Shown in pieces: positions 30,258-53,896 of a stretch of DNA of 64,000 nucleotides. Positions within the stretch are counted from its first letter, which is position 1. The number at the start of each line of letters is the position of its first letter. The notes below the pieces were generated by a model. It ran no database searches. It saw only the letters and a list, made by a program, of their open reading frames with translations, and was not told where the DNA came from. The translations under genes were made by a program, and so were the position numbers. Location of the stretch: the NCBI GenBank assembly GCA_019915015.1, contig JAHBBC010000051.1, positions 57,237 through 121,236 on the forward strand, read 5' to 3'. The DNA comes from Auriscalpium vulgare (Eukaryota; Basidiomycota; Agaricomycetes; Russulales; Auriscalpiaceae).

Positions 30258-32011
30258 GTGGAAGACGCACAGTACGCCGCCGTTCTACTGCGCCTTTACG
30301 TTCTGCTGAGCATGCTGCCTCCAGACGCGGTCAAAAAAAGGCTACGACGCCAATTACTCGTCCCTCGACTTCGACCTCGCGCGTGCCATCGAGGCGTCAG
30401 TTGCGCTCAGCCGCGCGAACGCGCGCTCAAGTTCGCCGGGCGGAGGTGATGCCGCATGCGAGAGAGAGGAGGCTAGGGGGTCGGGCGTGTCAAGTGAGCA
30501 GGCGGAAGCCGCCCGGAGCGCGGCGCGTGCGCGCGCCCGCGAGCGGCGGGAGTATGAAGACACGCAAGACGAGGAGAGGGCGATGCGGGTCGTGGAAGGC
30601 GAGGACCCCCAGAAGACCCGCAAGAAACGGCACCGGCGCGGCCGTCGCAAGGCAGCGAAGCCAAGGACCCAGTCAGGCCTGCCTCTGCCCACTCAGCACA
30701 TGGCGGACACCCACGCCTCCCATTCAATCACGCACTCGGAGGCCGTCCCGGCTGACACCATGGCCGACTTCAAGGTTTCCAGCGCAGGGTGGCGGGGAAC
30801 GACGGCTTTAGACGAGGTCGCGGCGACATACCTCGACAGGCTCGTACCGCCGGAGGAGCTGGTGGAGAAGCATGCGTTTCGGGTCCAGCACTGGGATGGA
30901 ACGTGAGTGACGCCGGCACGTATTTGATTGGCCATGTCGGGGGCTGATTCTTTGCCTCAATGCACTCCCCAGTGGCAGCAAGTCGGTGGCCGACCGCGAG
31001 GACCGGATACTGGTACAATTGGCTGGTCGGCCGCCTACGGACAAAACCTGGCCCGACCAAGCAAAGAGCATGAGCGAAGTGCTAGATGAAGTCGCCCCGC
31101 TTGTTGATTTCGAGCCCGGCCCTCATCAGCGCGGGCGATACCCTTTTCTGCACGCAGGGTTTACTCATGGCGGAGGGTCGGAAGTGCGTGTTTGCCAGTG
31201 CTTGTCGCTGAAAATTGAGCACTCACTTTTGATCCTCAGGAGCCTCATAATACAAAGGCCGGGAGCAGTGACCACCAGCTGGCAAGATCACGCATCCTGG
31301 CACACGAAGGCATTCAGCGCGCGGCAGGGTTCCAGAGCAGTGAGTGTCTCCCTCTGCAGCTCCCACTCGACGACTCTCAACGCGACACACACGCATTGCG
31401 GCATGTTAGGCGCAACGTCTCTCAACGCACCTCGTCTCTTTGGCCGCCTGGATGAAGTCGTGGAGGACGTGCGCGCGCGCAGGCCATTCCTCGAGAAGCC
31501 CTTCGCGCGGAGCGTGTTCCCCATGGCCACGTTCAACTTTGGACCACGGGCGTTGACCGTGCCCCACCGGGACTCAAAGAATGTGCCGTTCGGGTGGTGC
31601 GCAATAACTGCGCTCGGAAACTACGACTACAAAAAGGGAGGGCATCTGATTCTATGGGAGCTGAAGCTGATCGTAGAGTTCCCCCCCGGCTCCACTATAC
31701 TCATTCCGTCGGCACTTCTCACCCATAGCAACACCCCAATCCAGGACGGCGAAACGCGGCAGTCCTTCACACAGTGGTGCTCAGGCGATCTGGTTCGCTG
31801 GCAAGCGTACGGCCAGCGCACGGAGAAAGCACTTGAGCGCGAAGACCCGGAGCTCAAAAAACACCTAGACGAAGAGATCGATCTCCGGTGGAAGCGGTCG
31901 GTGGAGTTATTTTCAAAGAGGAGGGAGCTCCAGGACGACGTGAGGACGATGCGCGAGCGTTTGAGGGTGATGCACGGGCAGGGCGTTTCAAACCCTGCCA
32001 TGGTTGATTGA
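30258..32011 (+). CDS. TET/JBP-family 2-oxoglutarate/Fe(II) dioxygenase, 5' frameshift
   Basis: Exons 30258-30902, 30973-31183, 31240-31339 and 31410-32011; introns 30903-30972, 31184-31239 and 31340-31409. The catalytic part is in the last exon: the HxD iron ligand (PHRDSKN, 31565-31573), GGHLILWELK, the second His (LLTHSNTP, 31724) and the 2-oxoglutarate-binding Arg (GETRQSFTQW, 31757), matching basidiomycete TET/JBP proteins that oxidise 5-methylpyrimidines in DNA. Upstream are a basic coiled region (RERREYEDTQDEERA) and KTRKKRHRRGRRK, probably nuclear or DNA-binding. The N-terminus from ATG 30258 is in a different frame from 30340 on; the A7 run at 30333-30339 holds one A more than an open frame needs. 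The catalytic triad is complete. Confidence 0.82.
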
Positions 32012-32425
32012 CTTAGCTGCCATGGTACCATAATTTATGTGCATACTGTAGATATTATGTTCTATGGTCCTCTGGACAAGTGCTACCCAATACTGTCAAT
32101 ACTGGCTTGGTTTGTGCCAGAGGGATGTGTTTTGTAGTACAGGTGACATGGATGTCACATGTGACCAGCACAGTGACAATTCACTCGGGAAATCAGTACC
32201 AAATCGCAACACATATTGCTGGTCAGTGGGCAACCCAATCGACTTCATTTTTGGTGTGTGTGGTGCCCCCACTGAGGTGTACCTGCATGCCAAGTTTCAC
32301 GCTGAAACTCCAACATTTTCATTTTGGGGTGGGGTTAGACATCTGTAAGGCATTAATTAGTATAGAGTAGGTTTCCAGAAGTAGCATCTCAGCTGCTCCT
32401 GTCGGGGACCGCGGCGTACCTATCG
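32012..32425. other. Gap between the TET/JBP gene and the minisatellite
   Basis: AT-richer DNA with no gene or repeat that I can support. It contains the 3' flank of the TET/JBP gene. I looked here for the right end of the Plavaka-type cluster and found no inverted repeat matching the 15-17 kb region. Confidence 0.5.
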
Positions 32426-33797
32426 CAGTGTGAGCGTCCTGGACGCCCACTGCACGCGCAATTGCTGTCAGCGGGCCCTGCGCTGTGTGTGTCCGTCCGG
32501 GACGGACACTGCCGAGCACAGGCAACAACGCTGCGGAGGGTGGCGCACGGCGTGCGCGTCCTGGACGCCCACTGCACGCGCAATTGCTGTCTGCGGGCCC
32601 TGCGCTGTGTGTGTCCGTCCGGGACGGACACTGCAGAGCACAGGCAACACGCTACGGAGGCTGGCGCACGGCGTGCGCGTCCTGGACGCCCACTGCACGC
32701 GCAATTGCTGTCTGCGGGCCCTGCGCTGTGTGTCTCTGTCAAGGAAAGATGCTGCCGAGCATGCTGCGCAGGCTGGCGCGCGGTGTGGGCGTCCTGGACG
32801 CCCACTGCACGCGCAATTGCTGTCTGCGGGCCCTGCGTTGTGTGTCTCTGTCAAGGAAAGATGCTGCAGAGCATGCTGCGCAGGCTGGCGCGCGGTGTGG
32901 GCGTCCTGGACGCCCACTGCACGCGCAATTGCTGTCAGCGGGCCCTGCGCTGTGTGTGTCAAGGAAAGATGCTGCCGAGCATGCTGCGCAGGCTGGCGCG
33001 CGGTGTGGGCGTCCTGGACGCCCACTGCACGCGCAATTGCTGTCTGCGGGCCCTGCGCTGTGTGTCTCTGTCAAGGAAAGATGCTGCCGAGCATGCTGCG
33101 CAGGCTGGCGCGCGGTGTGGGCGTCCTGGACGCCCACTGCACGCGCAATTGCTGTCTGCGGGCCCTGCGCTGTGTGTCTCTGTCAAGGAAAGATGCTGCA
33201 GAGCATGCTGCGCAGGCTGGCGCGCGGTGTGGGCGTCCTGGACGCCCACTGCACGCGCAATTGCTGTCTGCGGGCCCTGCGCTGTGTGTGTCCGTCCGGG
33301 ACGGACACTGCAGAGCACAGGCAACACGCTACGGAGGCTGGCGCACGGCGTGCGCGTCCTGGACGCCCACTGCACGCGCAATTGCTGTCTGCGGGCCCTG
33401 CGCTGTGTGTCTCTGTCAAGGAAAGATGCTGCCGAGCATGCTGCGCAGGCTGGCGCGCGGTGTGGGCGTCCTGGACGCCCACTGCACGCGCAATTGCTGT
33501 CTGCGGGCCCTGCGCTGTGTGTGTCCGTCCGGGACGGACACTGCAGAGCACAGGCAACACGCTACGGAGGCTGGCGCACGGCGTGCGCGTCCTGGACGCC
33601 CACTGCACGCGCAATTGCTGTCTGCGGGCCCTGCGCTGTGTGTCTCTGTCAAGGAAAGATGCTGCAGAGCATGCTGCGCAGGCTGGCGCGCGGTGTGGGC
33701 GTCCTGGACGCCCACTGCACGCGCAATTGCTGTCTGCGGGCCCTGCGCTGTGTGTGTCAAGGAAAGATGCTGCCGAGCATGCTGCGCAGGCTGGCGC
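32426..33797. repeat. Minisatellite of ~112-bp units, left block (about 12 units)
   Basis: Each unit contains the palindrome GGGCGTCCTGGACGCCC or GCGTCCTGGACGC followed by CACTGCACGCGCAATTGCTG and CGGGCCCTGCGCTGTG. Two main unit types alternate: type B carries GTCCGTCCGGGACGGAC (for example 32491-32507 and 32613-32629) and CACAGGCAACACGCT; type A has GTCAAGGAAAGATGCTGC instead. The block ends inside a unit, exactly at the transposon insertion (33797/33798), and resumes at 39520. Confidence 0.95.
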
Positions 33798-33954
33798 TAG
33801 ACCGGTGACCGTTCTGCCTGACGACTTGAAAGGGTGGAGGGGCGTCGTCAGACAGACCGGTCGATCTGAGTTTAAAAACATAGGCAGTTCTGAGGTGGCG
33901 CCGACGCACCTTTTTGGGATTTAATAACGTGACTCCGGAAGTTGCCACGACGCG
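33798..33954 (+). repeat. Left terminal inverted repeat
   Basis: Aligns with the right TIR over about 157-163 bp. The inner 90 bp is nearly identical (AACATAGGCAGTTCTGAGG, TTTTTGGGATTTAATAACG); the outer part is diverged. It contains an internal stem TGACGAC (33819-33825) / GTCGTCA (33844-33850). Confidence 0.93.
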
Positions 33955-34003
33955 TGCTGGCATACCGTCGCGTCGCCGCGTCGCCTGTTCACGCTCGTCT
34001 GCA

Positions 34004-36175
34004 ATGCCCGTTGCACCATCATGCCGGCTACAGCTCTCAGAAGACCTTCGGACAACTATGCAAACAGTATATGACATTCCGGACTCACAGTTGCAGCACG
34101 AAGCTTCGACTCGGCTGTCAACTCGACTTGACTCCCTCCGCAACTTCTTGTCGACTCTTTCGACCGCGGACTTGCACGTAGCTCTTCGTGCATGCCTCTT
34201 GCTGCATTCTGTTACTCTAGGGCAGAAAATTCCGCGTCAAATGCAGCTCGAAAGCGTCCTGCCACTCTCTGCACGACGAGACTCTCTCGTGAACGCCGGG
34301 ACTGGCTCTGGAAAAACCATTTGCATGGTCCTCGCTGTTCTGCTGGACCCGTGCTCGACAACCCTGGTGATAACGCCTCTAAAGCGCCTTCAGATTAACC
34401 AGGTAAGCTTTTCATAGTTTTTCCACGGTCGATTCACTCATAACATCCGCAGGTTGCCGAGTTCGCGCAGTATGGCATCGAGGCACGAAGTATCAACGAG
34501 GACACTCCAAAAGGAGATGAAGCGCTATGGAAGGTGAGAGATATGTCTACGAAAAAGACGTCCGTGCTCATTTTTTGCAGCGCATAGGGACGGGGGAATA
34601 CCCCGTGATACTTATCGCGCCAGAATCCCTCGATGAGCACAACGGTCACGTCCCTCGCATCACGCGGCTCATTCGCGGTGACCGGTCATTCAAGAAGACC
34701 ATCAAGCGGGTCATAGTGGACGAGGCCCACTACATCTATACAACGGGACTTCGGCTCTACGGGCTCCCTGCACATCGACCGGCGTGGGGCAACATCGGGT
34801 CGCTTCGCGTTCACCTCGAGAAGGGCACACCCTTCCAGGCTATGTCCGGGACACTCCCACCTCACATAGTACGCGCCATCGTCGACAGTCTCATGCTCTC
34901 GGCGAACTATGTCACCATCACGTACACATCGAATCGTCCAAATATCACATATGCCTTCCGCGCGATCGTCGGATCGCTGTCCGACTATCGAAACCTCGAC
35001 TTTGTAGTTCCAGCACTCGGCAAGACTCTCATATTCTTTGACAACAAGACGGAGGCCATGAACGCGGCCAATTATCTTGACAACCATCCGAAGCTTCCGC
35101 CGGAGGAGCGCGGACGGAAAATGGCTGTCGAATATCATTCAGACATGTCCGCCGAGTACCTTGCACAGAAGTACAAGGAGTTTGCGGATGAAAAGGGGCC
35201 CGTGAAGATCCTCTGCGCGACATCCGGGTGCTCTACAGTATGTCGTCTTTTATGATACGCTCTTGCGCTGTGCTGACTCTTGTACTTGCAGGGCATAGAC
35301 ATCGCGTTCATCTTGCTCGTCATTCAGTACGGGTTTTGCAGAGATGTGCCGAATTTGAGACAGCGTGGCGGGCGAGGTGGACGCGATGCCGCGCTTCGGG
35401 CGCTGTTCTTAGTCCTGTACGAGCCGTGGGCCCTCGCAATCGACCTCAGCAAGCCTAGGATCGACCCGAACGACCCCGACTCGCCATTCACTCAACTGAC
35501 ATCCAAGTCGAAGAAGCGAGAACGATCCGGGTTTGCCACTCTCCATCTCATCCAGTCGAGCAAATGCGTCCGCGGGCTTCTCGCCGATTACTTCAACGAT
35601 GAGACGGAATCTCGTATGCCTTTCAATGCACAAGCTTACAGTGGTACTAATGCCTCTGTTCAGGCGTCTTGTATACGAACCCGTGGTGCTGTGATCGACA
35701 TCCTGGACAAGCCATCGACTTCACGGTGTGGATCAAGGGTGAATTTTTGACGCCCGACGTAGCAAATGCGAAGAAGCCCGCTGCGCCGCAAAAGCGAGGA
35801 AAGCGAGGGTCCGTCCGTCCCATGGTCGAGCGCAAGAAGCTTGACGAGAAGCTGATGAGCTGGCGCAAGGGCGCCCACGCTGCTCACATCTTGCGCGCTG
35901 TCCGCGTGCCGGCAATGATCTTCAATGAAAAGGGCATCAGTGCCGTCTCGCGGATTGCGTCGAAGAACCTGTCGGTCGACTCTATCGTAGAGGCCCTGGG
36001 TGAGGACAACGAGTGGAGGAAAGAGTGGGGCGAGCGGGTCCTGGAAGTCATTCGAGAATACGATGTGGAACTCCAGCATGCGCGGGATGCTGCTAGTGAC
36101 AGCAGCAGTGCAAGTCCGGAGTCAGAGGAGCCTGGCGACGGACCAGATGTCGATAGCGACAGCGAATTAGACTGA
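34004..36175 (+). CDS. RecQ-like DEAH-box helicase of the transposon
   Basis: Exons 34004-34402, 34453-34533, 34581-35237, 35292-35613 and 35664-36175, about 656 aa. Motifs in order: Walker A GTGSGKT (residues about 99-105), TPLKRL, DEAH (VDEAHYIY, about 207), MSGTLPP (motif III), ILCATSGCST-GIDI across intron 3, and motif VI QRGGRGGRD (about 403). The part after the motor has a paired-cysteine segment (NPWCCDRHPGQ) and a highly acidic tail (DSDSELD). The frame is open from 33914 inside the TIR, but ATG 34004 is the likelier start. It is presumed to act with the transposase during element movement; the polarity and substrate cannot be read from sequence. Confidence 0.87.
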
Positions 36176-36197
36176 TACCAGGTTACCAAGTAATTTA

Positions 36198-39100
36198 TTA
36201 CAGTACATCTGTGTCGACGTCTACAACGATATCCGGCAGTGGTAGCTCATCCTCCTCATCCTCAGCCAACGATGCCCCCCGCTGCATCGCCCGAATCTTC
36301 TTGTTGAAGTTCTCGAGTGAGGATGACCGTAGCTTTGCTTCGCCGACAGCGAGCAGGTCCGGCATCAACTTGACGTGCTCGTTGCCTTCTCTTCCGCTCT
36401 GGTGCTGAAGCAGCTCGAGCTCGCGGGCTTTGTCTGCGACGCGCCACACGAGCCGTGATGTGTCGGGTGTTGTATGCGTCGAGCCGTAGTAGGCTGTGCC
36501 GACCATGTCGCAGACCTGTTTCTTGAGGTGCTCGAGGTGTGTGATACACGCTGAGATGTCGCCGAGTCTATCCCAAGTTGAATAGATTCCCTTTGCCGCA
36601 AATAGCGTCTGTAAGCGCAAAGTCCGTAGTCAGCCTCATCACACAGCATGACGGGATCGCCATCTGAACGCTAGGGCAACCTTGAGAGCACGGATGCCAT
36701 GCTCAGCATTTAGGTCGACACCCATTCCGTGCCCTGGAAGCCCCGAGACGTTGACGATGATATTGTCCCGCACTATGTCTCTAGAGAGTCCCCGGGTGTA
36801 TTTAGTGAGTTTGCACAGCGCACACTGACCAGCGACAACTCACGCAAATTGAGGTGTCCATACATACTTCAGGTTGAGCATCAGATGCAGGATCTCGGCG
36901 CAGTAGTTGTTGCTGCCCGCGCCTCGGAAGATCATCGTGAGCTGCGGCAGGAGAGGTTCGACTCGACCGAAGTCAGTGTCGGAGATGGCCTTGATGATTG
37001 CGGCAACATAGAGCAGATCCCGGATGAGCAAGCGGATGTTGTTGTGCACTCGGTCCTCCATCGGATCCGCGTCTGTCGTTGGCCCAGTGTAGTCATTGAG
37101 AATGTCCGCAGCAAGCTTCAGAAGAGTGCTAGCGGACGGCTTCGACTCTGCAAAGGCTCGCAGTGTAGGGAAGCCACATGTCCGTCGCCACGCTGCCAGA
37201 ATGAGTCCGTGGAGGATCTGCATGAGCGCCGCAAGGAGGGTATGATAGTCCGGGTGCGCAGCTCCAAGTCGCGTCTTCTCCATGAGAGTGAAGAAGTACG
37301 TCAAGCTACCAATCTGAGAGAGCGTCCCTCGATGCACATGAAGCAGTGCCCAGACAAGGTTGAGGCAGAGATGGAAGAGTCCGACGACGACTTGCAAGAC
37401 CTCGCGGCGCGCCCACGGGGTGAGGTCATTTTGACGCAGCTGTTGTCCGCCTCGAATGCGTTGGTTTGTTAAGACATCGTTGATTGTGAGTATGGCGGTG
37501 GGAGAGAGCTGCTGATCTGTCATCTCGAGCTGTGTGATGTACGCGTCATCGTGAACCGCAAGGTTGCCTTGAGTTGTCGCCTCCTCGATTGTGGTGCAGC
37601 GTAGGGGGTAGACGGTAGTGACGTGTTGAGCTGAAAGGGGGCGACGTGCAGTGGGCCGCAGTTGTGGATCCCGTCTGTACGAGTCGTCAAAGTTGTCGAC
37701 AAAGTCTAGAAGAGTGGAAATAATGATATGCGACAGCTCCGAGTGGATCGCCCAAGAGCTCGCAAGTGTTGGGCGGACGTCTGAAATGTACGAGAGGCCG
37801 TGGCATTTCAGGAAGTTTGCTCGGATTGGAGCCAGCAAGACATCGGAAGGTTTTACGGGGCCGGATGAGAGATACAGAGGATAGAGCATGGCGAATGTGC
37901 CGGACTGAACCTTCTGAGGCGTGGCAGCGCCACGAAGTTCGACGAATTTTGACATGGAGATGTTGATGTTGTCGTAGCCAAGCATATGAGGCTCTCGCGC
38001 GATCGTCTGCGCAAGTGCAACGCAGCGCTTGGCTAGGTGGCCGAGCAACTGGAGGACGGAGTCGTAGGAAATGGAGAGGCCGCACCGATGGAGGACGTCG
38101 ATGAGTTTCCTCTGGGCGCCGGTTGCCCACAGAAACATGCCGAATGGCCCGCAGAATTTAATGCAGCGGTTGGAACGCTGTCGTGCGAGCTGCAGGATGA
38201 CTATGCCGCAGAGCTAAAAAGGCGTCAGCGCAGCTTCCCGCAGATGACTGGTCACGTACGACGTTGGGTTTCTTGAGCTTGTTCTTTTCCTTGGCTGTGT
38301 CGGTCTGAGCTGCTCGAATGAGAAGGCGCGAGAGTGTCGGCGCGAGCTTGACGACAGGGTCCACGATAGTGTCCCATGACCAGGTCTTGAGAAAGTCCGG
38401 CGTGACGGAGTCGACGGAAGGGAGATGTAGATTTGCCTGGACACTTGCCATCTCCGTGTTGAAAGTCTTCTCGAGGGAAGAGAGAGCGTGCGGCATCATC
38501 CAGTTTGAAAGTTTTGCGGCTCCTCGAGAATCTTCCATGATGGCGTCGAGGAAGCAATCCAGGTGCGCAAAATCAGGCCGGTACCATTGGCGACGAGTAG
38601 CCTCGTGAGCCGGCTGCGATGTATCGACCAGAGTAGTGACGGCTTCAAGCGGACAGATTCCGGCGTTCCGAAGAATGAGAAGCGCAGCCTCGATCTTCTG
38701 TGACCGTGTGAGCGTCTTGAACGGTCGGCATAGGTCGTCGAGGCAGACCATGTCGCAGTCCTCAAGCATCGCAGCGCCGTTGACAGACGCCTCCGAGGGA
38801 GAAAAGAGATCCTCGCTGTCGAATGAACTGGGATCCGGCAGTGCATATATGCGGTCGCCGGATGTCGATGGTCGAAATGTGGGCGCAGGCAGAAGTGCAG
38901 CAGGTGCGGGAGATTCTTGAGCGGGTGTGTAAGGTGCAGCGAAAACGAGTTGTCTCCCAGGAGGGAGGTGCGAAGATGCCCGCAGCGCGGACGGCGGTGT
39001 TGCCGCTGGGACTGAGTCCGAGAGAGTGCTGAGAGGTGAAAAGCTCGTAGAAGATCGAGAAGAAAAACCAGACCAGAAGCTTGAGTAAGACGACACCGGA

Positions 39101-39306
39101 GAGAAAATTCCAGCATCTTCCCCCGCAACAGATGACGAGCTCAGGGAGGTAGTCGTGTCCGGGGCGGATGTGTCAAGCTGGAGAAGTGACTCTCCGCTGT
39201 ACTGGCTCTTCAGGCGCTTGAAAGGTCTCCCAGGACCCAGATACACGTTTGAGAGCCTCCTCTTGCTGCCAGATGGCAAAGAGCTGCTGTCAGACGGCAG
39301 AGACAT
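36198..39306 (-). CDS. DUF6589-family (Academ-type) transposase
   Basis: Exons 39306-38260, 38213-36844, 36780-36681 and 36608-36198; about 975 aa (an ATG at 39369, inside the TIR, would add 21). The first 200 residues are Ser-rich with a basic patch (GSKRRLS, RPFKRLKS). The core shows the DUF6589 pattern: RQRSN and GMFLWATGA, GYDNINISMS, INDVLTNQRIRG, a long LFHLCLNLVWALLH helix with GTLSQIGSLTYF, NNYCAEILHL, GMGVDLNAEHGIR. Asp in GYDN, Asp in INDVLT and Glu in NAEHG are my candidate catalytic triad. The tail is acidic (EDEEDELPLPD). It is convergent with the helicase, 22 bp between stops, so the transcripts probably overlap at their ends. Confidence 0.82.
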
Positions 39307-39356
39307 CGAGGTGCTGAGCGTACAGGCTACGGTCGGGATGGTCGCGACGGGCGCGA

Positions 39357-39519
39357 CGCGTCGTGGCAATTTCCGGAGTCACGTTATTAAATCCCAAAAA
39401 GGAGCGTCGGCGCCACCTCAGAACTGCCTATGTATTCAAACTCAGATCTGCCAGTCTGTCTGGCGACACTTCTCCTCCCCATGCCCAAGTGTCGCCGAGA
39501 CAGAGTGGTTACGAGTCTA
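39357..39519 (-). repeat. Right terminal inverted repeat
   Basis: Reverse complement of the left TIR. Its internal stem GGCGACACTT (39462-39471) / AAGTGTCGCC (39487-39496) sits at the position of the left stem but has a different sequence. Confidence 0.93.
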
Positions 39520-42500
39520 GGCTGGCGCGCGGTGTGGGCGTCCTGGACGCCCACTGCACGCGCAATTGCTGTCTGCGGGCCCTGCGCTGTGTGTCTCTGT
39601 CAAGGAAAGATGCTGCAGAGCATGCTGCGCAGGCTGGCGCGCGGTGTGGGCGTCCTGGACGCCCACTGCACGCGCAATTGCTGTCTGCGAGCCCTGCGCT
39701 GTCTCTGTCAAGGAAAGATGCTGCAGAGCATGCTGCGCAGGCTGGCGCGCGGTGTGGGCGTCCTGGACGCCCACTGCACGCGCAATTGCTGTCTGCGGGC
39801 CCTGCGCTGTGTGTGTCCGTCCGGGACGGACACTGCAGAGCACAGGCAACACGCTGCGGAGGGTGGCGCACGGCGTGCGCGTCCTGGACGCCCACTGCAC
39901 GCGCAATTGCTGTCTGCGGGCCCTGCGCTGTGTGTCTCTGTCAAGGAAAGATGCTGCAGAGCATGCTGCGCAGGCTGGCGCGCGGTGTGGGCGTCCTGGA
40001 CGCCCACTGCACGCGCAATTGCTGTCTGCGGGCCCTGCGCTGTGTGTCTCTGTCAAGGAAAGATGCTGCAGAGCATGCTGCGCAGGCTGGCGCGCGGTGT
40101 GGGCGTCCTGGACGCCCACTGCACGCGCAATTGCTGTCTGCGGGCCCTGCGCTGTGCGTGTCCGTCCGGGACGGACACTGCAGAGCACAGGCAACACGCT
40201 ACGGAGGCTGGCGCACGGCGTGCGCGTCCTGGACGCCCACTGCACGCGCAATTGCTGTCTGCGGGCCCTGCGCTGTCTCTGTCAAGGAAAGATGCTGCAG
40301 AGCATGCTGCGCAGGCTGGCGCGCGGTGTGGGCGTCCTGGACGCCCACTGCTGTCTGTGGGCCCTGCGCTGTGTGTGCTTGTCCAGGACAGATGCTGCAG
40401 AGCATGCTGCGCAGGCTGGCGCGCGGTGTGGGCGTCCTGGACGCCCACTGCACGCGCAATTGCTGTCTGCGGGCCCTGCGCTGTGTGTCTCTGTCAAGGA
40501 AAGATGCTGCAGAGCATGCTGCGCAGGCTGGCGCGCGGCGTGGGCGTCCTGGACGCCCACTGCACGCGCAATTGCTGTCTGCGAGCCCTGCGCTGTCTCT
40601 GTCAAGGAAAGATGCTGCAGAGCATGCTGCGCAGGCTGGCGCGCGGTGTGGGCGTCCTGGACGCCCACTGCACGCGCAATTGCTGTCTGCGGGCCCTGCG
40701 CTGTGTGTCTCTGTCAAGGAAAGATGCTGCAGAGCATGCTGCGCAGGCTGGCGCGCGGTGTGGGCGTCCTGGACGCCCACTGCACGCGCAATTGCTGTCT
40801 GCGGGCCCTGCGCTGTCTCTGTCAAGGAAAGATGCTGCAGAGCATGCTGCGCAGGCTGGCGCGCGGTGTGGGCGTCCTGGACGCCCACTGCACGCGCAAT
40901 TGCTGTCTGCGGGCCCTGCGCTGTGTGTCTCTGTCAAGGAAAGATGCTGCAGAGCATGCTGCGCAGGCTGGCGCGCGGTGTGGGCGTCCTGGACGCCCAC
41001 TGCACGCGCAATTGCTGTCTGCGGGCCCTGCGCTGTGTGTGTCCGTCCGGGACGGACACTGCAGAGCACAGGCAACACGCTACGGAGGCTGGCGCACGGC
41101 GTGCGCGTCCTGGACGCCCACTGCACGCGCAATTGCTGTCTGCGGGCCCTGCGCTGTGTGTCTCTGTCAAGGAAAGATGCTGCAGAGCATGCTGCGCAGG
41201 CTGGCGCGCGGTGTGGGCGTCCTGGACGCCCACTGCACGCGCAATTGCTGTCTGCGGGCCCTGCGCTGTCTCTGTCAAGGAAAGATGCTGCAGAGCATGC
41301 TGCGCAGGCTGGCGCGCGGTGTGGGCGTCCTGGACGCCCACTGCTGTCTGTGGGCCCTGCGCTGTGTGTGCTTGTCCAGGACAGATGCTGCAGAGCATGC
41401 TGCGCAGGCTGGCGCGCGGTGTGGGCGTCCTGGACGCCCACTGCACGCGCAATTGCTGTCTGCGGGCCCTGCGCTGTGTGTCTCTGTCAAGGAAAGATGC
41501 TGCAGAGCATGCTGCGCAGGCTGGCGCGCGGTGTGGGCGTCCTGGACGCCCACTGCACGCGCAATTGCTGTCTGCGGGCCCTGCGCTGTCTCTGTCAAGG
41601 AAAGATGCTGCAGAGCATGCTGCGCAGGCTGGCGCGCGGTGTGGGCGTCCTGGACGCCCACTGCACGCGCAATTGCTGTCTGCGGGCCCTGCGCTGTCTC
41701 TGTCAAGGAAAGATGCTGCAGAGCATGCTGCGCAGGCTGGCGCGCGGTGTGGGCGTCCTGGACGCCCACTGCACGCGCAATTGCTGTCTGCGGGCCCTGC
41801 GCTGTGTGTGTCCGTCCGGGACGGACACTGCAGAGCACAGGCAACACGCTGCGGAGGGTGGCGCACGGCGTGCGCGTCCTGGACGCCCACTGCACGCGCA
41901 ATTGCTGTCTGCGGGACCTGCGCTGTGTGTCTCTGTCAAGGAAAGATGCTGCCGAGCATGCTGCGCAGGCTGGCGCGCGGTGTGGGCGTCCTGGACGCCC
42001 ACTGCACGCGCAATTGCTGTCTGCGGGCCCTGCGCTGTGTGTGTCCGTCCGGGACGGACACTGCAGAGCACAGGCAACACGCTACGGAGGCTGGCGTACG
42101 GCGTGCGCGTCCTGGACGCCCACTGCACGCGCAATTGCTGTCTGCGGGCCCTGCGCTGTCTCTGTCAAGGAAAGATGCTGCAGAGCATGCTGCGCAGGCT
42201 GGCGCGCGGTGTGGGCGTCCTGGACGCCCACTGCACGCGCAATTGCTGTCTGCGGGCCCTGCGCTGTGTGTCTCTGTCAAGGAAAGATGCTGCCGAGCAT
42301 GCTGCGCAGGCTGGCGCGCGGTGTGGGCGTCCTGGACGCCCACTGCACGCGCAATTGCTGTCTGCGGGCCCTGCGCTGTGTGTCTCTGTCAAGGAAAGAT
42401 GCTGCAGAGCATGCTGCGCAGGCTGGCGCGCGGTGTGGGCGTCCTGGACGCCCACTGCACGCGCAATTGCTGTCTGCGGGCCCTGCGCTGTGTGTCTCTG

Positions 42501-44404
42501 TCAAGGAAAGATGCTGCCGAGCATGCTGCGCAGGCTGGCGCGCGGTGTGGGCGTCCTGGACGCCCACTGCACGCGCAATTGCTGTCTGCGGGCCCTGCGC
42601 TGTGCGTGTCCGTCCGGGACGGACACTGCAGAGCACAGGCAACACGCTACGGAGGCTGGCGCACGGCGTGCGCGTCCTGGACGCCCACTGCACGCGCAAT
42701 TGCTGTCTGCGGGCCCTGCGCTGTGTGTGTCAAGGAAAGATGCTGCCGAGCATGCTGCGCAGGCTGGCGCGCGGTGTGGGCGTCCTGGACGCCCACTGCA
42801 CGCGCAATTGCTGTCAGCGGGCCCTGCGCTGTGTGTGTCAAGGAAAGATGCTGCCGAGCATGCTGCGCAGGCTGGCGCGCGGTGTGGGCGTCCTGGACGC
42901 CCACTGCACGCGCAATTGCTGTCTGCGGGCCCTGCGCTGTGTGTCTCTGTCAAGGAAAGATGCTGCCGAGCATGCTGCGCAGGCTGGCGCGCGGTGTGGG
43001 CGTCCTGGACGCCCACTGCACGCGCAATTGCTGTCTGCGGGCCCTGCGCTGTGTGTCTCTGTCAAGGAAAGATGCTGCAGAGCATGCTGCGCAGGCTGGC
43101 GCGCGGTGTGGGCGTCCTGGACGCCCACTGCACGCGCAATTGCTGTCTGCGGGCCCTGCGCTGTGTGTGTCCGTCCGGGACGGACACTGCAGAGCACAGG
43201 CAACACGCTACGGAGGCTGGCGCACGGCGTGCGCGTCCTGGACGCCCACTGCACGCGCAATTGCTGTCTGCGGGCCCTGCGCTGTGTGTCTGTCAAGGAA
43301 AGATGCTGCAGAGCATGCTGCGCAGGCTGGCGCGCGGTGTGGGCGTCCTGGACGCCCACTGCACGCGCAATTGCTGTCTGCGGGCCCTGCGCTGTCTCTG
43401 TCAAGGAAAGATGCTGCAGAGCATGCTGCGCAGGCTGGCGCGCGGTGTGGGCGTCCTGGACGCCCACTGCACGCGCAATTGCTGTCTGCGGGCCCTGCGC
43501 TGTGTGTGTCCGTCCGGGACGGACACTGCAGAGCACAGGCAACACGCTGCGGAGGGTGGCGCACGGCGTGCGCGTCCTGGACGCCCACTGCACGCGCAAT
43601 TGCTGTCTGCGGGACCTGCGCTGTGTGTCTCTGTCAAGGAAAGATGCTGCCGAGCATGCTGCGCAGGCTGGCGCGCGGTGTGGGCGTCCTGGACGCCCAC
43701 TGCACGCGCAATTGCTGTCTGCGGGCCCTGCGCTGTGTGTGTCCGTCCGGGACGGACACTGCAGAGCACAGGCAACACGCTACGGAGGCTGGCGTACGGC
43801 GTGCGCGTCCTGGACGCCCACTGCACGCGCAATTGCTGTCTGCGGGCCCTGCGCTGTCTCTGTCAAGGAAAGATGCTGCAGAGCATGCTGCGCAGGCTGG
43901 CGCGCGGTGTGGGCGTCCTGGACGCCCACTGCACGCGCAATTGCTGTCTGCGGGCCCTGCGCTGTGTGTGTCCGTCCGGGACGGACACTGCAGAGCACAG
44001 GCAACACGCTGCGGAGGGTGGCGCACGGCGTGCGCGTCCTGGACGCCCACTGCACGCGCAATTGCTGTCTGCGGGACCTGCGCTGTGTGTCTCTGTCAAG
44101 GAAAGATGCTGCCGAGCATGCTGCGCAGGCTGGCGCGCGGTGTGGGCGTCCTGGACGCCCACTGCACGCGCAATTGCTGTCTGCGGGCCCTGCGCTGTGT
44201 GTCTCTGTCAAGGAAAGATGCTGCAGAGCATGCTGCGCAGGCTGGCGCGCGGTGTGGGCGTCCAGCACGCCCACTGCTGTCTGTGGGCCCTGCGCTGTGT
44301 GTGCTTGTCCAGGACAGATGCTGCAGAGCATGCTGCGCAGGCTGGCGTGCGGTGTGGGCGTCCTGGACGCCCACTGCACGCGCAATTGCTGTCTGCGAGC
44401 TGTG
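39520..44404. repeat. Minisatellite of ~112-bp units, right block (about 44 units)
   Basis: Continuation of the 32426-33797 array after the transposon. It contains type A units (112 bp), a 108-bp subtype lacking GTGT, type B units with GTCCGTCCGGGACGGAC, and a short type C (near 40350, 41345 and 44285) with CTTGTCCAGGACAG and loss of CACGCGCAATT. The plus strand has no stop codon in any frame of the unit, so three ORFs of about 1,680-1,690 codons run through it. I do not annotate them as genes: the same residues recur with every frame in turn. Confidence 0.95.
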
Positions 44405-46947
44405 TGCTGCGTGGTGAGTGGAGAGGTTTCACCAACCCTACTGAACCCTACCATGCCCCATAACCCTAACCGCGCACACTTGCACTCGACATTGCTGCTT
44501 CGCCCGAGCCTCGCTACACGTTTGCACCGTTCGCCTGAGCCAGCCGCGTCATCGCCGAGGTCTCCCGACTCGTCCGAGCATCTAGAGCAGTCCATCAACT
44601 GCATAGTCCGTCGGATCTTGGCCATGTCTCACATCAATTAGCCCACATCGCCGAAGCCCGAGCCATGAGATAGCGACCCCGTCCACGTCGTCGCAGCCGT
44701 TCGCCGGCGCTCGCCTGTACTCAGCGGACACAGCTGCACATGCCCGACCTCCCAGCGACTCAGAGATGCAGCGCAGACTCGCAGACCATCGAGCCGTTGC
44801 CCAGCGACATCGGAGACGATCCCCGAGCCCGAGACATCAGCGGACCGGATCATCAACCACTCCTGATGCATCGCTGTCGCATCCCGAGCATCCCGGAGGT
44901 TTCGCCGAAGATAGCATCATAGTTGCGCCTAGACCGTCGCGATACTGTCCCCTCATGTCCCAGCCGTTCACCGATGTTTGCCTATGTTCAGCGAGCTCAG
45001 CTACACGTCTAGGGTCTCTCAGCAACTCGCCAACGATACAGTGACTCGCAGAACATCGAGATATCGCTCAGCAACGCAGGAGTCAGTGCCCAAGCCCGAG
45101 CCATCAGTGATCCGGATCAACGATCACTTTTGACGCGTCGCTGATGCGCCCCGAGTGTCTCGGAGACTTTGCTGGAGATATCTCCGCTTTTGTGTCTAGG
45201 CCTTTGATATCTCCTCTCTCTCATTCGCTATAATTCGCCGATGCTTCGCACGGCTTCGCTGACTGCATCGCATGACTCGTGTAGCTACTCCAACGCATTT
45301 TCCCATGTATAAGTGTAGCTAGCAGTGTCTGCATGCAATAGGAACTTCTCCCCCCAGAGACAGCACCTCAAACCTCGAGAACTATCGTCTTTCACCTTTG
45401 CAGCGCATCGTTTAGCCCTTTTATCGACATCAACATCGCATTCACCTTCGCAGCGCATCGTTTACGCACTTGCATATCGAGAACCTTCGCCCTATTGTCG
45501 CCCATCGTTGCCCAGCGTCGCCTATCATCCCCGACCTTCGCCCTACCTCCCCGACTCTTGCTACGCCACCCCAAGCCTCGTAACACCGCCCACACCTTCG
45601 CCGACACTCTCCCTCATCCCCCGTCGCTCGCTACACTTCCCCAGTGACAGCTGCGACTCTCCGAGCCCTCTGGTAGACCTGGGACACACCCCCCAACTAA
45701 AACAGTACTACTCGGCGAGCAGGGTTTGGTTTTGTCATCTGACCGCCTGTCCAACGAGTTTGGTCATCACCGGGCGGCCACCCGGGCCCCTGCAGCATCG
45801 AGAACGGGGGCGATGTCTAACTCGCGGGCCTCACCAGGCCACCGCCCTGCTGTACGCTGCGCAGTGGTCAGCACGCTACCGCATGGCACGCTCATCACCA
45901 CGCACCATTGTCGCCGCAGGCAGCGACTGGAACTCTGGGAACCGCATACCTGTGGACGATGGTTAGGGGGGAAAGGGAAGAACTATCCATCCATTCATGC
46001 GCCAGCGACATTATATGCACCAGCGCCTAGCAAACACACGTATCACGCGCAAACACTCCTTACGTATACGTTCCCCGCCCATCCTAGGGCCTACGCGCCA
46101 TCACGCTCCTTGGCACCGGCTACGCGCGCGACGAGGGCATCGCATTTTCATTGGGGGGCACATGGAGTGGGACTCCATAGGCAGAGGAGGAGGAGAGAAC
46201 ACGGATAGGAGAGAGGAGCAGAAGGAGCAGAGGATGGGGCTGGAACAGAGAGAGAAGGGATCGGAAGAAGTGAAGGGACAGGGCAGGAGGAGCAGGAGCG
46301 CGGAGCAGGAGGACGGGGTGTCGGGAGCCGCGCGCGAGTCGCCGGGGTCCCGCAGAACCACTTGTAGCGCGCCAGCGCACGCAGCAGACATCATCATCCA
46401 CGTCGCGCTGCGTCGACCAGCTGCCCGACTCGACACGAGTCCACCGGCGACGCTGAATTGATCGTTGGCGATGTTGAGCGGGCTCGCGATTGTCGGTCCA
46501 CAAATTAGCAGGGAAGGTGTGAATGTTTATAAAGATGTCGCGAAAGAGAATCGATGGTCACGACGTGAGAAAGAAAGACGACACTGGCCACGTACCCAGC
46601 ACTGTCTTCTATGCGCCATCCGGGCGATATGATCCCATTGTCCCATTCCGATTGTAACGCAGGCGCACCTCGTCGTGTGCGCGCCATAGTAGTGGGTCAT
46701 GTTTGTTGCTGTTTGGATGAAGTCGTAGATAGGCGCGCCTTCCCCTTTTGGGAAGGCATCTTCTTAACTTGTACATCCACTCTACGACTTCGGCATCCAT
46801 CGATTCGCTTCGAATATACGTGGATTCCGTTCATCCAGAGTGACCAGCAAGTCATCAAGACCACTACTTATTACAGTTTTTTGAACGCCAACAGTACGTC
46901 TATCGAAACGACTCTAGTTACTGACAGACGCTACCTAGAACCGCGCT
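44405..46947. other. No gene recognised; presumed 5' LTR/leader of the following Gypsy element at its right end
   Basis: The first 100 bp holds telomere-like words (CCCTA, TAACCCTAACC near 44460). Diverged repeats follow at 44.69-45.18 kb. The right part, up to the gag frame at 46948, should contain the 5' LTR of the Ty3/Gypsy element, but I cannot define it because the 3' LTR is outside the window. Confidence 0.5.
44689..45181. repeat. Diverged direct duplication of about 230-270 bp
   Basis: 44689-44915 and 44956-45181 share a series of words in the same order: CAGCCGTTC, CTCAGC, ACTCGCAGA.CATCGAG, GCCCGAG, CATCAG, GGATCA, GAGATA-like endings. Similarity is partial, so the duplication is old. 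Confidence 0.5.
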
Positions 46948-49900
46948 ATGGCCCCTCGCTCCGAGAAGTCTCGTGTCTCCACCCGTACCGGTGGAAACAC
47001 GAAGCCACCACCCTCGTCCAATACAACTGCCCCTCCCGAGCAGGTTGTAACGCCCCCCGATGGTGCCGGCGATCATACCGCTGACGCCCCCGTCCCCGTG
47101 GCTATCGCAGAGCCGTCTGGCCCACACGCGACGCCCGGACCGTCGACGACAACCGTCGAGCGCGGCGCTACCCCCGGTCCGTCCGGAGGTAGTGCGCTCA
47201 CGTCCCTCACGGACATAGATGAGGCGTTAGACGAGTCGGATGAGGACACGCGTGCCACGTCACGCCGAGACAAAGGCAAAGGTCGCGCAATCGATGATGG
47301 CAATGGGTCTGTAGGAACACAGATTATGGACCCCCGTCTCATAACAATGCTTGACGACCTTCAGATGCACGTTGCTGCTCACGCGTCCCAACTCGAGACA
47401 GTGTCGGTAGTAGCTGAACAGGCCCGGCAGTCTGTACAGGCTGCCACTGTAGCGCGTACGCAGATAGATAGCATTATAAAAGCCATCGTGATGCAGTACG
47501 GACCGACCTCCATTAAACAAGAGGAAGAGGACATCGACCTCAGTGCGATGGCCCCGACCGCGCCCGCATCACCATTCAGCATTGTCGTGACTCCGCCTAG
47601 CGCCTCAGAGACGAGCAGCAACGGACCCTCGGTCGGGCTTGGCACCCGCACACCCGAAGAGGGGCGTCGCAACCTCGAAAAACACCGCGCCAAGATGGTG
47701 GACATGATACAGAAAACCACTCCGCTGGGGAATTTGGACCCGCAGAATGGTACCGCGACCAATCAATTCAGAGAGCCCGATCATGCGGTTGGTCGGAATG
47801 CACGAGTGGATCGCGAGCAATATCAGCAGGATGACCGTACAGTGCGCATCGCTGAACCATACACCAGCGTCACCCCGTACAGTGTGGCGCCCGTTAAACA
47901 GCGCGTGAAACCACTGCCCCCTCAGGCCAATCCGAAGGCGGGTACATTCGGCGTGCTAGACCCCGCGGAGCGTATAAAGGAAATGGTTCTATCACGAGTG
48001 AGCGAGGCCGTTAGTATGGGGGTTCCAGATCAAGGGGCTCAAATTTACCATGCCGTCAGCATATGGCGTAGAGGATAACCTCATTACCTTCGAGGTCTGG
48101 CTCGGCGCTCTACTCCGGTGCCAGTTGCGACTCAGTCAGGCTGTAGGGCCGGACTACGACTCCCTTCGCCTAGACGCCCTGGGTCAGTGTTTGTCAGGTC
48201 GAGCCGAGAAGTGGTATAACGATGAAATCGAGTCACCGTCACGATCGCAGGTTGATTGGACCTTCCTGGAAGCCATTCTTGCATTGTTCCGACGGTTCAT
48301 TGTCGGCAAAAGTGACCAGACAGCCATGGAACACTTCATGTCGACCAGATTCTCCCGAAAGGGCGGCGTCGCCGATTTCTACAACGAGTTGAGGACGCGA
48401 TCCACCCGCCTTGTCGAATTACCCAACGATTATACTTTCCGCAAGTTATTCGTCAGTGGGTTACCGTCTGATATCGTGGAAATTATGTATAAGCATAAAG
48501 GAATCGTAGCCGAGGAGGGGACGACCACAGAGTTGCTCACCGCCGCGCTGGAAGCGGAGGCCGGTACGCGTGCCTACCGCCAAATGATCGAGAGCGCCGG
48601 TCGCAATCGTACCACCACACTAGCTGGACCATCCCAGAGCTACAGAAGTGCACGGGAAGGGGACGACGAACCCCGCACGTCACGCGCCACGTCGGTTTCA
48701 CCGCGCCCAGCGTCGAAGAACACTGAGAAGAGCGAGCCGGACAAGAGTCATGGCCCCACATCGTCGGGCCGCGGTCGTCCAGGAACGTCTTCTCGAGGGC
48801 GCGATCGATCGACCCCGAGGCCAAAGCCCGACCGCAAATCAATCGTCTGTTTTGCGTGCGGTGGCATCGGCCATTACGCCAGTGACTCTGAGTGTCCAAA
48901 ATCGGGACAGCCGCGCGTATACGCAGCCCGGGTCGTAGATGATGATACCGGCGGCAGCGGAGCGCCCGAGGAAGCACCCAGCGATAGTAGCCACGGCGTA
49001 GCCGCCGTAGGAACCAACGAGGCAGTAGAGGCCGATGACGCCGAGAGCGAGAGTGACGACGGTCTATTGGGCGCGCAATACGAATCCGCTGAGGAATTTG
49101 CGGAGGACTATGAGGAGGCTGACTCGGACGACGAGTTCGGGCCCCCCATGCGCCTCGCAACCATGCGGATAGCGGCCATGCGATGGCAGCCCGAAGACGC
49201 GACAGGCGACGCAGACGCACCCAGTGCGGAAGACGCACCCAGTGCGGAACCTGCATCCTCCGCCCCGATAGCGATTGTTACGAACGGCACCGCCGGGTCA
49301 CATTCTCCCGTTGGAGGAACCCCAGAAGGCGGATGGACGGGCGCAGAGGCAGTCGAGAACGGATGGCCTGGTAACTCCGCTCCAGAATGGGGAGAGGCAG
49401 GACCATCAGTCAACTGGGGAAACTATGAGCCCCCGGAGGATGACGCACCGCCAGTCTCATGGGAGACAAATGACGCTGCACCGTGGACTGCACATACAGC
49501 GAGGCCACAGAGATCACCGGAGCCGCAGATCATCGAGTATCCTGACGACACGGTCGTCCGACTTGATTCTCCAGCTGGAGAGGGTTCACAATATACGATA
49601 GTACCGAGACGCGTCGAGACCGGAGAAGAGGAAGTCGAAAATGCATACCAAGATGGTATCGACGCCGGTATACGTATGGCTCGCAACATGGTGACCGACT
49701 ACGCAGTGAACCTTGACGTCAATGATGACCGTTCACCGGGCATTGAGTTCGCTGGCCGAGTGTTAGAAAGACTCGCCAATAGACCGTATCAGCGAAGCAA
49801 TACCGCCGATGCTCTGTCACGGCTGCCTGCCGTTGACACGGAGGAGCTGTACGACGACATTCCTAGTCTGATTGACGTCCCGGTGTCCAGAACGAACGAG

Positions 49901-50638
49901 CAGACCCCAGATCGCGCAGAGGAACATACAGAAGCCCCTGCGCCGAGTCCCAGTACACAGGCGCCCGAATCAGCGGCAAACCCGCCTGTAGTACGGCCTG
50001 ATACTTTGGCAGCTGAAGAGGATGACGAAGAACTAGCCGTGGACAAGATCTTAGAGATACAGATCATGGCCACCCGCACGATCCCAGCGGACGCAGTGGC
50101 TACCCCACGATGGGCATACGATGCCAATATACGGCGTCAGTCCTCCACCACGGAGCAGCCGGTGCGAATTGCGCACCTGCATCAAGTACTAGCGGCGAAT
50201 CTGCAGGTTGGCGACCCCGAGATGTACGTGCTCTTTGATAGCGGCAGTACTACGAATGGGGTCAGTCACGACGCTGCACACATCGCTAAGATGGACGTGT
50301 TCCAATTGAAGGAACCGATGACATTGCAGCTGGGGTGTGTCGGAAGTCGCTCGAGGATTAACTTCGGCACGCGCTCCGCAGTCAGGATAGGCGGACAGAA
50401 ATTCCCCTGCTTCCTCGACATTGTGAACATTGAGCATTATGACGTCATTCTGGGCACACCTTTCTTGAAAGACTACAAGGTGATACTGGACTTTGAGCGG
50501 AATGTGATACGCATGGGCGACATCACAATAACACCACTCACGGTCGAGGAGGAGCGTTTAGTAACAAAGCGACGTGGCCGAACGGCTCCTCCCCATCCCA
50601 CGGCCCAGCTGAACGCTCTCGCAGCCCGCTCTGAATGA
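46948..50638 (+). pseudogene. gag: Gag-protease of the older Gypsy element, with a frame change
   Basis: ATG 46948 opens a 376-codon frame (Ser/Thr/Pro-rich, predicted coiled stretch LQMHVAAHASQLETV). Near the G5 run at 48018-48022 the coding potential moves by +1 into the frame of 48050-50638 (KFTMPSAYGVED, the usual start of the Gag core). The second part has the Gag core (LSGRAEKWYNDEI, FYNELRTRSTRLVELP), a zinc knuckle (CFACGGIGHYASDSEC), a long acidic linker and a retroviral-type aspartic protease (LFDSGSTTNG, DSG at 50237-50245; ILGTPFL). It ends at TGA 50636-50638, with pol following in the same frame. The shift may be a single-base indel or a programmed +1 event. Confidence 0.75.
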
Positions 50639-53600
50639 GGGCACGCGGCGGGATCCACGAGAGTGGAACCTGCCACCTCCGAGGGTGCGCCATCCGTGGG
50701 GCGCCCTCCCGCAAAGCCCCCGGATAATGATCAGACAATTGACGTGCTACGACGCAAGTGGTACGAACGCACCGTTGATATCATGTGCCCAGTACCACTC
50801 GAGTTACCTCCCATGCGGGCTGTCAATCATCATATCTCTCTCATTGACGAGTCACTGAAGATCTGATACCATCTCCCACGTTGCCCCGACGCCTTGAAGC
50901 CACAGCTAGCCGAAAAATTGCAGAGATATGTGGATGCGGGCTGGTGGAAGCGACAGGTGGCGCCGGAAGCCGCACCGCTGCTATGTATCCCGAAGAAATC
51001 TGGGAAGTTACGCACAGTGGTGGATGCTCGTAAACGGAATGATAACACTCACAAAGACGTGACACCTTTCCCCGACCAGGACCAAATTCGAATGGACGTA
51101 GCGCGCGCTAAATTCCGGTCCAAAATTGATATGAGCGATGCCTACGAGCAAATTCGAGTGGAAACGGCGGACGTGTGGAAGACGGCATTCGCTACCGTGT
51201 ACGGCACGTTTATCAGCCTTGTTATGCAGCAGGGAGACTGTAACGCACCTGCCACCTTCCAGCGCTTGATGACGGTCATATTCCAAGATTATATCGGAAT
51301 ATTCATACACGTTTACCTTGACGATATCTTCATCTACTCGGATTCAGTGACAGACCACGAACGTCACCTACGGCTTGTATTTGATCGACTCCGAGAGAAT
51401 CACTTGTTTCTTAGTCGGGACAAGTGCGACCTATACTCCATTCGACTTGATTGTCTAGGCCATGTGGTTGACGACAAGGGCATCCATGCGGATACAGACA
51501 AGATGGCGCGGGTACGCGGTTGGCCACGGCCCCGTAACTACCAAGAGGTCCAGCGTTTTTTGGGACTCGTACAATATCTTGCACAATTTATGCCTGATGT
51601 CAGTGCGTACACAACCCCACTCGCTGGACTTTCCTCCAATGGTCGACCATTCGTCTGGGGCCCACTCCATGAGCGATGTTTCGAAATGACCAAAGCTTTG
51701 GCCTGCCGCACCCCGATCCTTCGACCCATCGACCCTCGAACGGGTGTAACAATATGGGTAATTTGCGACGCATCGACCTATGGTGTGGGTGTCGTGTATG
51801 GGCAAGGCCTTGATTGGACCACATGCCGACCGGCTGGATTTATGTCAAAGAAGTTTTCCAGTGCTCAGAGGAACTATCGTACCTTCGAACAAGAAACGAT
51901 CGCAATTCTCGAGGCACTGAATAAATGGTCAGACAAACTGCTAGGACGCACCTTCACCGTGGTGACGGACCACAAGGCGCTCGAATTCTTCAACTCGCAA
52001 CGCAATCTGTCCCCGCGACAAGTTCGCTGGTTCGAGTTTCTGTCCAAATTCGATATGACGGTCATGTACGTCGAAGGGAAATTGAACAAAGTCGCCGACT
52101 GTTTTTCACGCTACTATGAGTCGCTTGATGACCCATCTGCGGAGCCGGTGACTGTCGACTCCATGCTGGATCCTGAGGGGGAGGACTTGTCACCCGATCG
52201 ATTAATGGAGATACGAATGCAAGCTATACGAACACTGAGAGAACGACCGATATCCGAGGCAGTTCTCCCTCGTGATAGCGAGGCAGCGACGCTCGCGCGC
52301 ACAGCCGCTGCACCAGCAGAGCCAGAGATGGACGTCCCGGTTGAGGAAACCATCAAAAATTACCCATCACTGCCCGAGACTATACAGCGACCGGATGATT
52401 GGATACCGGCAGTGCGCCAGGGATCTCGTGCAGATGGATTCCTCGCTAAGATAATTGAGAATCCAGGACAATATCCTGCGTTCTCTGTCAATGATGACAT
52501 CGTATGGGTGGAATCCCGCGCGCGTGGACAAGTGCTTTGCGTACCGGAGATGATGATAGGCGAAAGGCAACTGCGCGAAATCATCATTGACACCGCACAC
52601 GCCACCGTTGGCCACCTGGGATTTCAGAAGACCGCGGACTACTTACGACGATGGTACTGGTGGCCCAAGGTTGGCCGTGAAATCGAGCGATTCTGCGCGA
52701 CGTGTGAAACATGCCAAACGATAAAGACGAGCAACTTACCGCCGTCAGGACTACTGCACCCGATGCCCATTCCTACTCGCCCTTGGGATTCCATTGGCAT
52801 GGATTTTGCTGGCCCATTCCCCGAGAGCGAAGGTCATAATTATATGTGGATAGTCATTTGCCGACTCACCTCGATGGTACATTTGATCCCGATAATCACC
52901 ACCGCCCGGACCACGGAGCTCGCACGACTGTACTTCCGTGAAATTGTACGATTGCATGGGATCCCACGTTCGATAGTGTCAGACCGTGACCCAAAATTCA
53001 CTGCGTTGTTCTGGAAGGAGCTCCACCGCCTGACTGGGACGAAGTTGCTGATGTCGACAGCATTTCACCCCCAGACAGATGGAGCGTCGGAACGCGCAAT
53101 TCGTACGATTGCCCAGATATTGCGCGGATTGGTGAAGCCTGACCAGAGTGATTGGGCTACGAAACTCCCTCTCGTTGAGTTTGCCATTAACTCGAGCATC
53201 AGCGCGAGCACTGGCTACGCACCATTCGAGCTTAACTATGGTTACATGCCTACGATGATCACGGACTTGAAGCCGGAAGGCACGTTCGAAGGCGTACGGC
53301 AATTCGCTCGCGCGGCTATTGAGAACCTGGCTCAAGCACATGATGCAATCATAGAGAGTCGAGTACGGCAAACGTACCAAGCAAACCAGCTTCGCCGAAC
53401 CGAAGCGAACATAGCGGTGGGGGATAAAGTGTACCTCAGCACGGCCAATCTGCGACTACCAAAAGGCAGAGCGCATAAGCTGCTGCCAAAGTTCGTTGGC
53501 CCGTATACCGTATTGGAGGCCCACCCCGGCAGTTCGAGCTACAAACTCGACCTCCCGGACGCACTGCGAGCGCGACGCATACATCCAGTATTCCATGCCT

Positions 53601-53896
53601 CGCTGCTGCGACCTCACGAGCCTAATGACGACTTACTATTCCCCAAACGCGAGATCGCCGCCGTCTACGACTTCGGCATACCCGATGCGGAAGAGGAATG
53701 GGTCGTGGATTCGATAGTCGCTCATCACTGGAAAGGGCGATCAGTCGAATTCCAAGTACATTGGGCATACGGGGACTATACCTGGGAGCCGTTGCGCAAC
53801 GTCGATGAACTGGCCGCACTGGACAACTACCTCCGCCTGGTTGGAGTAGAGAACTGGCGTGACTTGCCGCGGCCACGAGCCGCGGGACGACGATAA
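50639..53896 (+). pseudogene. pol: Pol of the older Gypsy element: RT, RNase H, integrase, chromodomain
   Basis: In the gag frame, directly after TGA 50636-50638. A second TGA at 50864-50866 interrupts a conserved stretch just before YHLPRCPDALK; downstream it is open for 1,000 codons. Reverse transcriptase has YLDD (51314-51325), RNase H has CDAS and TDHKAL, the integrase zinc domain has HATVGH...CATCETC, and the integrase core has MDFAGP, VSDRDPKF and HPQTDGASERA (candidate D, D, E). A C-terminal chromodomain (EEEWVVDSIVAHHW, FQVHWAYGDYTWEP) assigns it to the chromoviruses. Probably non-autonomous. Confidence 0.85.

Follow-up and report, generated by a model that had tools for sequence, protein, structure and literature searches.

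Within the window, a stretch of 64,000 nucleotides from the mushroom Auriscalpium vulgare (contig JAHBBC010000051.1, positions 57,237 to 121,236, in the following C51), we identified a complete two-gene transposon. It likely moves by cut-and-paste, combines a predicted DDE transposase of the family DUF6589 with a predicted RecQ-like helicase, produces 9-bp target duplications and is likely of the AcademH kind, a lineage of the Academ superfamily that reportedly goes back to Kojima in 2020. For this reading as a whole we estimate a probability of about 0.85. Directly visible are the ends of the element, the 9-bp duplications here and at other copies, the open frames of both gene models, the motifs of the helicase and the conservation of the residues D, D and E. 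DNA transposons carrying a helicase have been little studied.

The element proper occupies positions 33798–39519 of the window (5722 bp) and is inserted into a minisatellite array. Its boundaries and the insertion site are as follows:

32424..33797, no strand: left part of the minisatellite array (112-bp unit) into which the element is inserted
33789..33797, no strand: left target site duplication (TSD), GGCTGGCGC
33798..33955, + strand: left terminal inverted repeat (TIR), helicase side, starting with TAGACCGGTGACC; palindromic stem inside the outer 65 bp
39356..39519, - strand: right TIR, transposase side, starting with TAGACTCGTAACC on the - strand; palindromic stem near its end
39520..39528, no strand: right TSD, GGCTGGCGC
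39520..44397, no strand: minisatellite array right of the element

The 9-mer GGCTGGCGC directly flanks the element on both sides (33789–33797 and 39520–39528) and forms a perfect target duplication. Across the outer ~160 bp of each element end the TIRs are identical in 137 of 164 alignment columns, and their ungapped core comprises 124 nt at 90% identity. When the element is excised and one 9-mer is kept, the joined flanks (60 + 60 bp) are 100% identical over 120 bp to two intact places of the array. In a tandem array this is a non-trivial result because the left flank ends with the 9-mer and the right flank resumes at its start. An earlier sequence-only reading had proposed the span 33789..39528, TIRs of about 160 bp, a perfect 9-bp duplication within the minisatellite and the exact restoration of a minisatellite unit upon removal; all four points are borne out, and the span reaches to the far side of each 9-bp repeat. 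Assembly of tandem arrays is difficult, and GGCTGGCGC itself recurs across this one, 11 times left and 37 times right of the element. That the junction results from misassembly, or from a coincidence of phase within the minisatellite, is nevertheless extremely improbable, since the joined flanks match intact array places perfectly and the same or related ends are found with a 9-bp repeat at nine further sites on other contigs. A search with the flanks for a contig carrying the empty allele returned only repeats: the left flank of the array, which is a multi-copy repeat, a high-copy portion of the right flank, and the minisatellite, which is dispersed.

The genome assembly (51.6 Mb, 96 contigs) was searched for further copies, and the element ends gave 24, 22 and 24 matches. 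Only one full-length copy of this element family was found in the 51.6 Mb. The duplication count covers 15 two-ended copies, located at 14 sites, among them the one in the window and its relatives on contigs C7 and C2; L072 and L073 have identical flanks and were taken as one site, and copies with one end missing or decayed (L008, L074, L077, L079, L080, L081 and L082) were left out. A perfect 9-bp repeat flanks 10 of the 14 sites, the window included, which is the outcome of the genome-wide search suggested by the sequence-only reading. At none of the 14 sites was a perfect flanking repeat of 4–8 or 10–14 bp present. The misses are L006 (6/9 positions), L070 (7/9), L076 (2/9) and L078 (1/9); in L078 GTTGAATGG is found on either side, at a distance of 7 bp from one end, and the site was scored as a miss. 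As the C2 relative came from a TIR/TSD scan that demanded a direct repeat, it should be noted that without it the count is 9 of 13 sites. The same scan missed the C7 relative at 9 bp, since its two ends differ; this copy was found through end similarity. The 9-bp duplications vary in sequence from site to site. Other copies with different ends would, by its own account, have counted against the sequence-only reading; the remaining two-ended copies end in TAGAC or close variants of it.

Several of these copies are short and non-autonomous. L003 and L004 (609 bp) are two substitutions apart, as are L005 and L006 (608 bp). Both ends of these four copies are ~91–93% identical to the element, and their middle part of ~280 bp does not match it except for a 29-bp stretch. 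L069, with a length of 103 bp, consists precisely of the first 52 and the last 51 bp of the element and has its own duplication, GGAGACACG. Near-identical short copies and L069 therefore point to recent movement of these ends, and L069 suggests that ~50 bp per end may be sufficient for it. In the sister element on C7 (C7:47823–53582; L044, L015) the end TAGACTCG adjoins the helicase gene; in the window it adjoins the transposase gene. The interior of the C7 element may have been flipped by recombination between the inverted repeats. L072/L073 and the contig pairs C14/C49, C40/C43 and C5/C73 show identical flanks or equal scores, which suggests uncollapsed haplotypes or duplicated assembly segments.

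The two genes of the element are convergent and lie on opposite strands:

34004..36175, + strand: predicted RecQ-like superfamily 2 (SF2) helicase gene, 656 amino acids; predicted introns 34403-34452, 34534-34580, 35238-35291 and 35614-35663
36198..39306, - strand: predicted DUF6589 DDE transposase gene, 975 amino acids; predicted introns 38259-38214, 36843-36781 and 36680-36609
37971-37973 (D430), 37476-37478 (D595) and 36702-36704 (E832), - strand: predicted catalytic residues

All introns in both genes are predictions from the sequence. With this splicing both genes are open, as the sequence-only reading had claimed, and the helicase frame becomes so after removal of four predicted GT-AG introns. 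For the third transposase intron the alternative 36644-36609 is also open, but it adds 12 residues missing from the aligned homologues; 36680-36609 was preferred because these homologues have no insert at that place. The open predicted frames, the perfect empty site and the near-identical short relatives support the earlier view of an intact, recent insertion, and the element may still be able to move.

According to Pfam, the 656-aa protein contains the domains DEAD and Helicase_C, and the helicase motifs GTGSGKT, DEAH and QRGGRGGRD are found at residues 99, 207 and 403, respectively. RecQ-family helicases make up 37 of its 39 sequence matches in the PDB (best E 2.8e-16). An RQC domain was not detected by Pfam at E≤0.001.

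The 975-aa protein has DUF6589 as its sole Pfam match at E≤0.001 (E 1.2e-94, residues 490–884). The profile search proposed by the sequence-only reading thus leads to DUF6589, and no other named transposase family was matched. DUF6589 is classed by Pfam as a domain of unknown function. No match resulted when the PDB was searched with the transposase sequence or phage records with its second exon, and no locus related to the DUF6589 homologue P0002 was found in viral contigs. The modelled structure of a homologue with 57% identity shows a predicted RNase H-like core in which a long insertion, entirely helical, precedes the last E. It resembles the Hermes, P-element, Transib and RAG1 transposases, the closest folds being Hermes (hAT), P element and ISCth4, and the D-D-E set (here D430, D595 and E832) is conserved among DUF6589 homologues. 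An RNase H-like, DDE-type fold is therefore predicted for DUF6589 by way of this model, and DDE transposase is its likely function.

The same model could be taken to mean that the element belongs to a superfamily not yet described, with kinship to hAT, P or MuDR-like elements, which acquired its RecQ-like helicase separately from AcademH. Besides the closest folds, a motif right after beta 5 points in this direction: among 40 homologues scanned at that position only, 38 have GxxH and 2 have AxxH, the H being present in all 40, and this is the inferred place of the C/DxxH motif of hAT, P, MuDR and Kolobok, which in hAT lies between the second D and the last E (PMC10045372, in an excerpt). Moreover, no link between DUF6589 and Academ was found in the literature searched. 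On the other hand, the excerpt of PMC10045372 assigns TSDs of 9 or 10 bp to AcademH and of 3 or 4 bp to AcademX and ties this difference to the presence of a helicase or a nuclease, so that a helicase together with a 9-bp duplication speaks for AcademH. In addition, Basidiomycota, Ascomycota and Mucoromycota are reported to carry AcademH in low copy number (PMC10799480, likewise an excerpt). We regard an independent recruitment as unlikely and continue to place the element with AcademH.

The pair of helicase and transposase genes is conserved. By identical contig size, 31 of the 120 listed DUF6589 clusters pair with one of the 120 listed helicase clusters, two of these 31 having the same contig size. 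In the A. vulgare genome a related helicase is located not more than 6 kb from 12 of 25 DUF6589 loci, with ~0.006 expected per locus; the other 13 have none inside 6 kb. The pairs are convergent in the window and on C7, C2 (1773–1778k), C35, C38 and C23, and divergent on C20, C6, C14 and C49 (L060/L034, L058/L038, L062, L063), where C14 and C49 possibly represent two haplotypes of one locus. Among the matches listed, Dentipellis and Auriscalpium provide the nearest named homologues, which by themselves point to a likely host within the Russulales, and the named homologues listed belong to what we take to be mushroom-forming fungi. In Dentipellis fragilis, EVG20_g10773 and EVG20_g10774 (P0001, P0122) are both located on a contig of 5161 bases. 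This pair includes the best DUF6589 match listed (61% identity to the transposase), and the neighbouring helicase is the second helicase match listed (55%).

The ends of the element are palindromic. When the ends of three relatives were folded as single-stranded DNA, five of six were better than nearly all of 200 shuffled sequences (3, 0, 0, 2 and 0 shuffles as good); for the helicase-side end of the C2 relative the palindrome was not significant (43 of 200 as good). The terminal palindromes of the window element and of C7 have G-rich loops, and, judged by eye, their stems differ by paired changes. They might help to load the helicase or to bind the transposase, which is speculation. The 103-bp L069 retains only part of the stems, therefore intact palindromes may not be needed.

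The 112-bp minisatellite is dispersed in the genome and has matches near contig ends, for instance at C1:2059–2291, C8:1796315–1796891 (of 1801361) and C2:3153659–3155909 (of 3210677). On C1, C2, C8, C13, C26 and C27 the listed matches are in + orientation near contig starts and in - orientation near contig ends. It is likely a dispersed subtelomeric family. C51 starts with CCCTAAA repeats, and the insertion is located ~91 kb from this start. Telomere-like repeats were present at four of eight contig ends inspected (C51 start, C27, C2 and C8) and not clear at the other four (C51 right end, C1, C13 and C26). Hence, the insertion likely resides in a subtelomeric region. The telomere-like repeat is TTTAGGG, with seven bases, at the C8 end (L086) and the C51 start (L083); at the C27 start (L089) units of six and seven bases are mixed.

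Some further features were observed next to the element. All three + frames are open across the right array (39363–44641), and the resulting open reading frames (ORFs) of 1677–1691 amino acids might be mis-annotated as genes. To its right, at 48050–53896, there are retrotransposon ORFs with an aspartyl protease, followed by reverse transcriptase, RNase H and integrase zinc-binding domains. Left of the left array, the segment 30400–32380 is a multi-copy repeat, 98–100% identical on five other contigs. Here, a 341-aa ORF (30986–32011) had by eye been suggested as a dioxygenase; it had no Pfam match and this suggestion was dropped.

These results can be arranged into a possible course of transposition, of which the observed traces are products: duplications, ends and one deletion derivative. 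The transposase would bind the TAGAC-ended repeats, cut both ends out and insert the element at a target opened by a 9-base staggered cut, and repair would fill the 9-base gap and leave the duplication. The helicase probably opens the DNA at the ends or at the target, and the element or a close relative would also mobilise the short non-autonomous copies. A more far-reaching version is put forward tentatively, with the odds rather against it: DUF6589 would be the DDE transposase of a widespread group of mushroom transposons, in which the RecQ-like helicase melts palindromic ends with G-rich loops for cutting at a fixed 9-bp stagger, ~50 bp per end suffice, and one intact source spreads derivatives of 100 bp.

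New in this study are the DDE-type fold predicted for DUF6589 from the model, the seemingly sufficient short ends, the palindromic ends and the likely subtelomeric setting. Since both genes are apparently intact, the ends are exactly defined, the empty site is perfect and a 103-bp derivative is at hand, the role of the helicase becomes directly testable, and this natural derivative hints at the small amount of end DNA required.

Among known systems, Kolobok elements duplicate TTAA. Their fungal relatives, KolobokH, share with our element a fungal host, a DDE transposase and a RecQ helicase, the latter encoded downstream of the transposase domain (excerpt of PMC9587614). A KolobokH element is still a very unlikely explanation, as the helicase gene here is on the opposite strand and convergent, the duplication has 9 bp and varies, and the transposase matches DUF6589 only.

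The transposases of hAT elements (Hermes) and of the P element share with the fold predicted here the RNase H-like core and the long, entirely helical insertion ahead of the last E, but these elements duplicate 8 bp instead of 9, and our element has a separate helicase gene. MuDR/MULE elements possess long TIRs and a duplication of about 9 bp, traits that the element fits. However, its transposase matches only DUF6589 (E≤0.001) and not PF10551, the MULE transposase domain (PMC8290104), for which there was also no match at E≤0.01 among 40 DUF6589 homologues.

The AcademH label, already given by the sequence-only reading, is based on how the element is built and how long its duplication is, and not on sequence comparison; in this sense it is well supported, not proven. 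The 9–10 bp which that reading gave for some AcademH elements agree with the excerpt of PMC10045372, and the duplication found here falls within this range, none of the 14 sites having 10 bp. The low copy number, one full-length copy in 51.6 Mb, corresponds to the excerpt of PMC10799480. Finally, like AcademH, the element unites a DDE-type transposase, as judged by the fold of the homologue model and the conserved residues, with an SF2 helicase.
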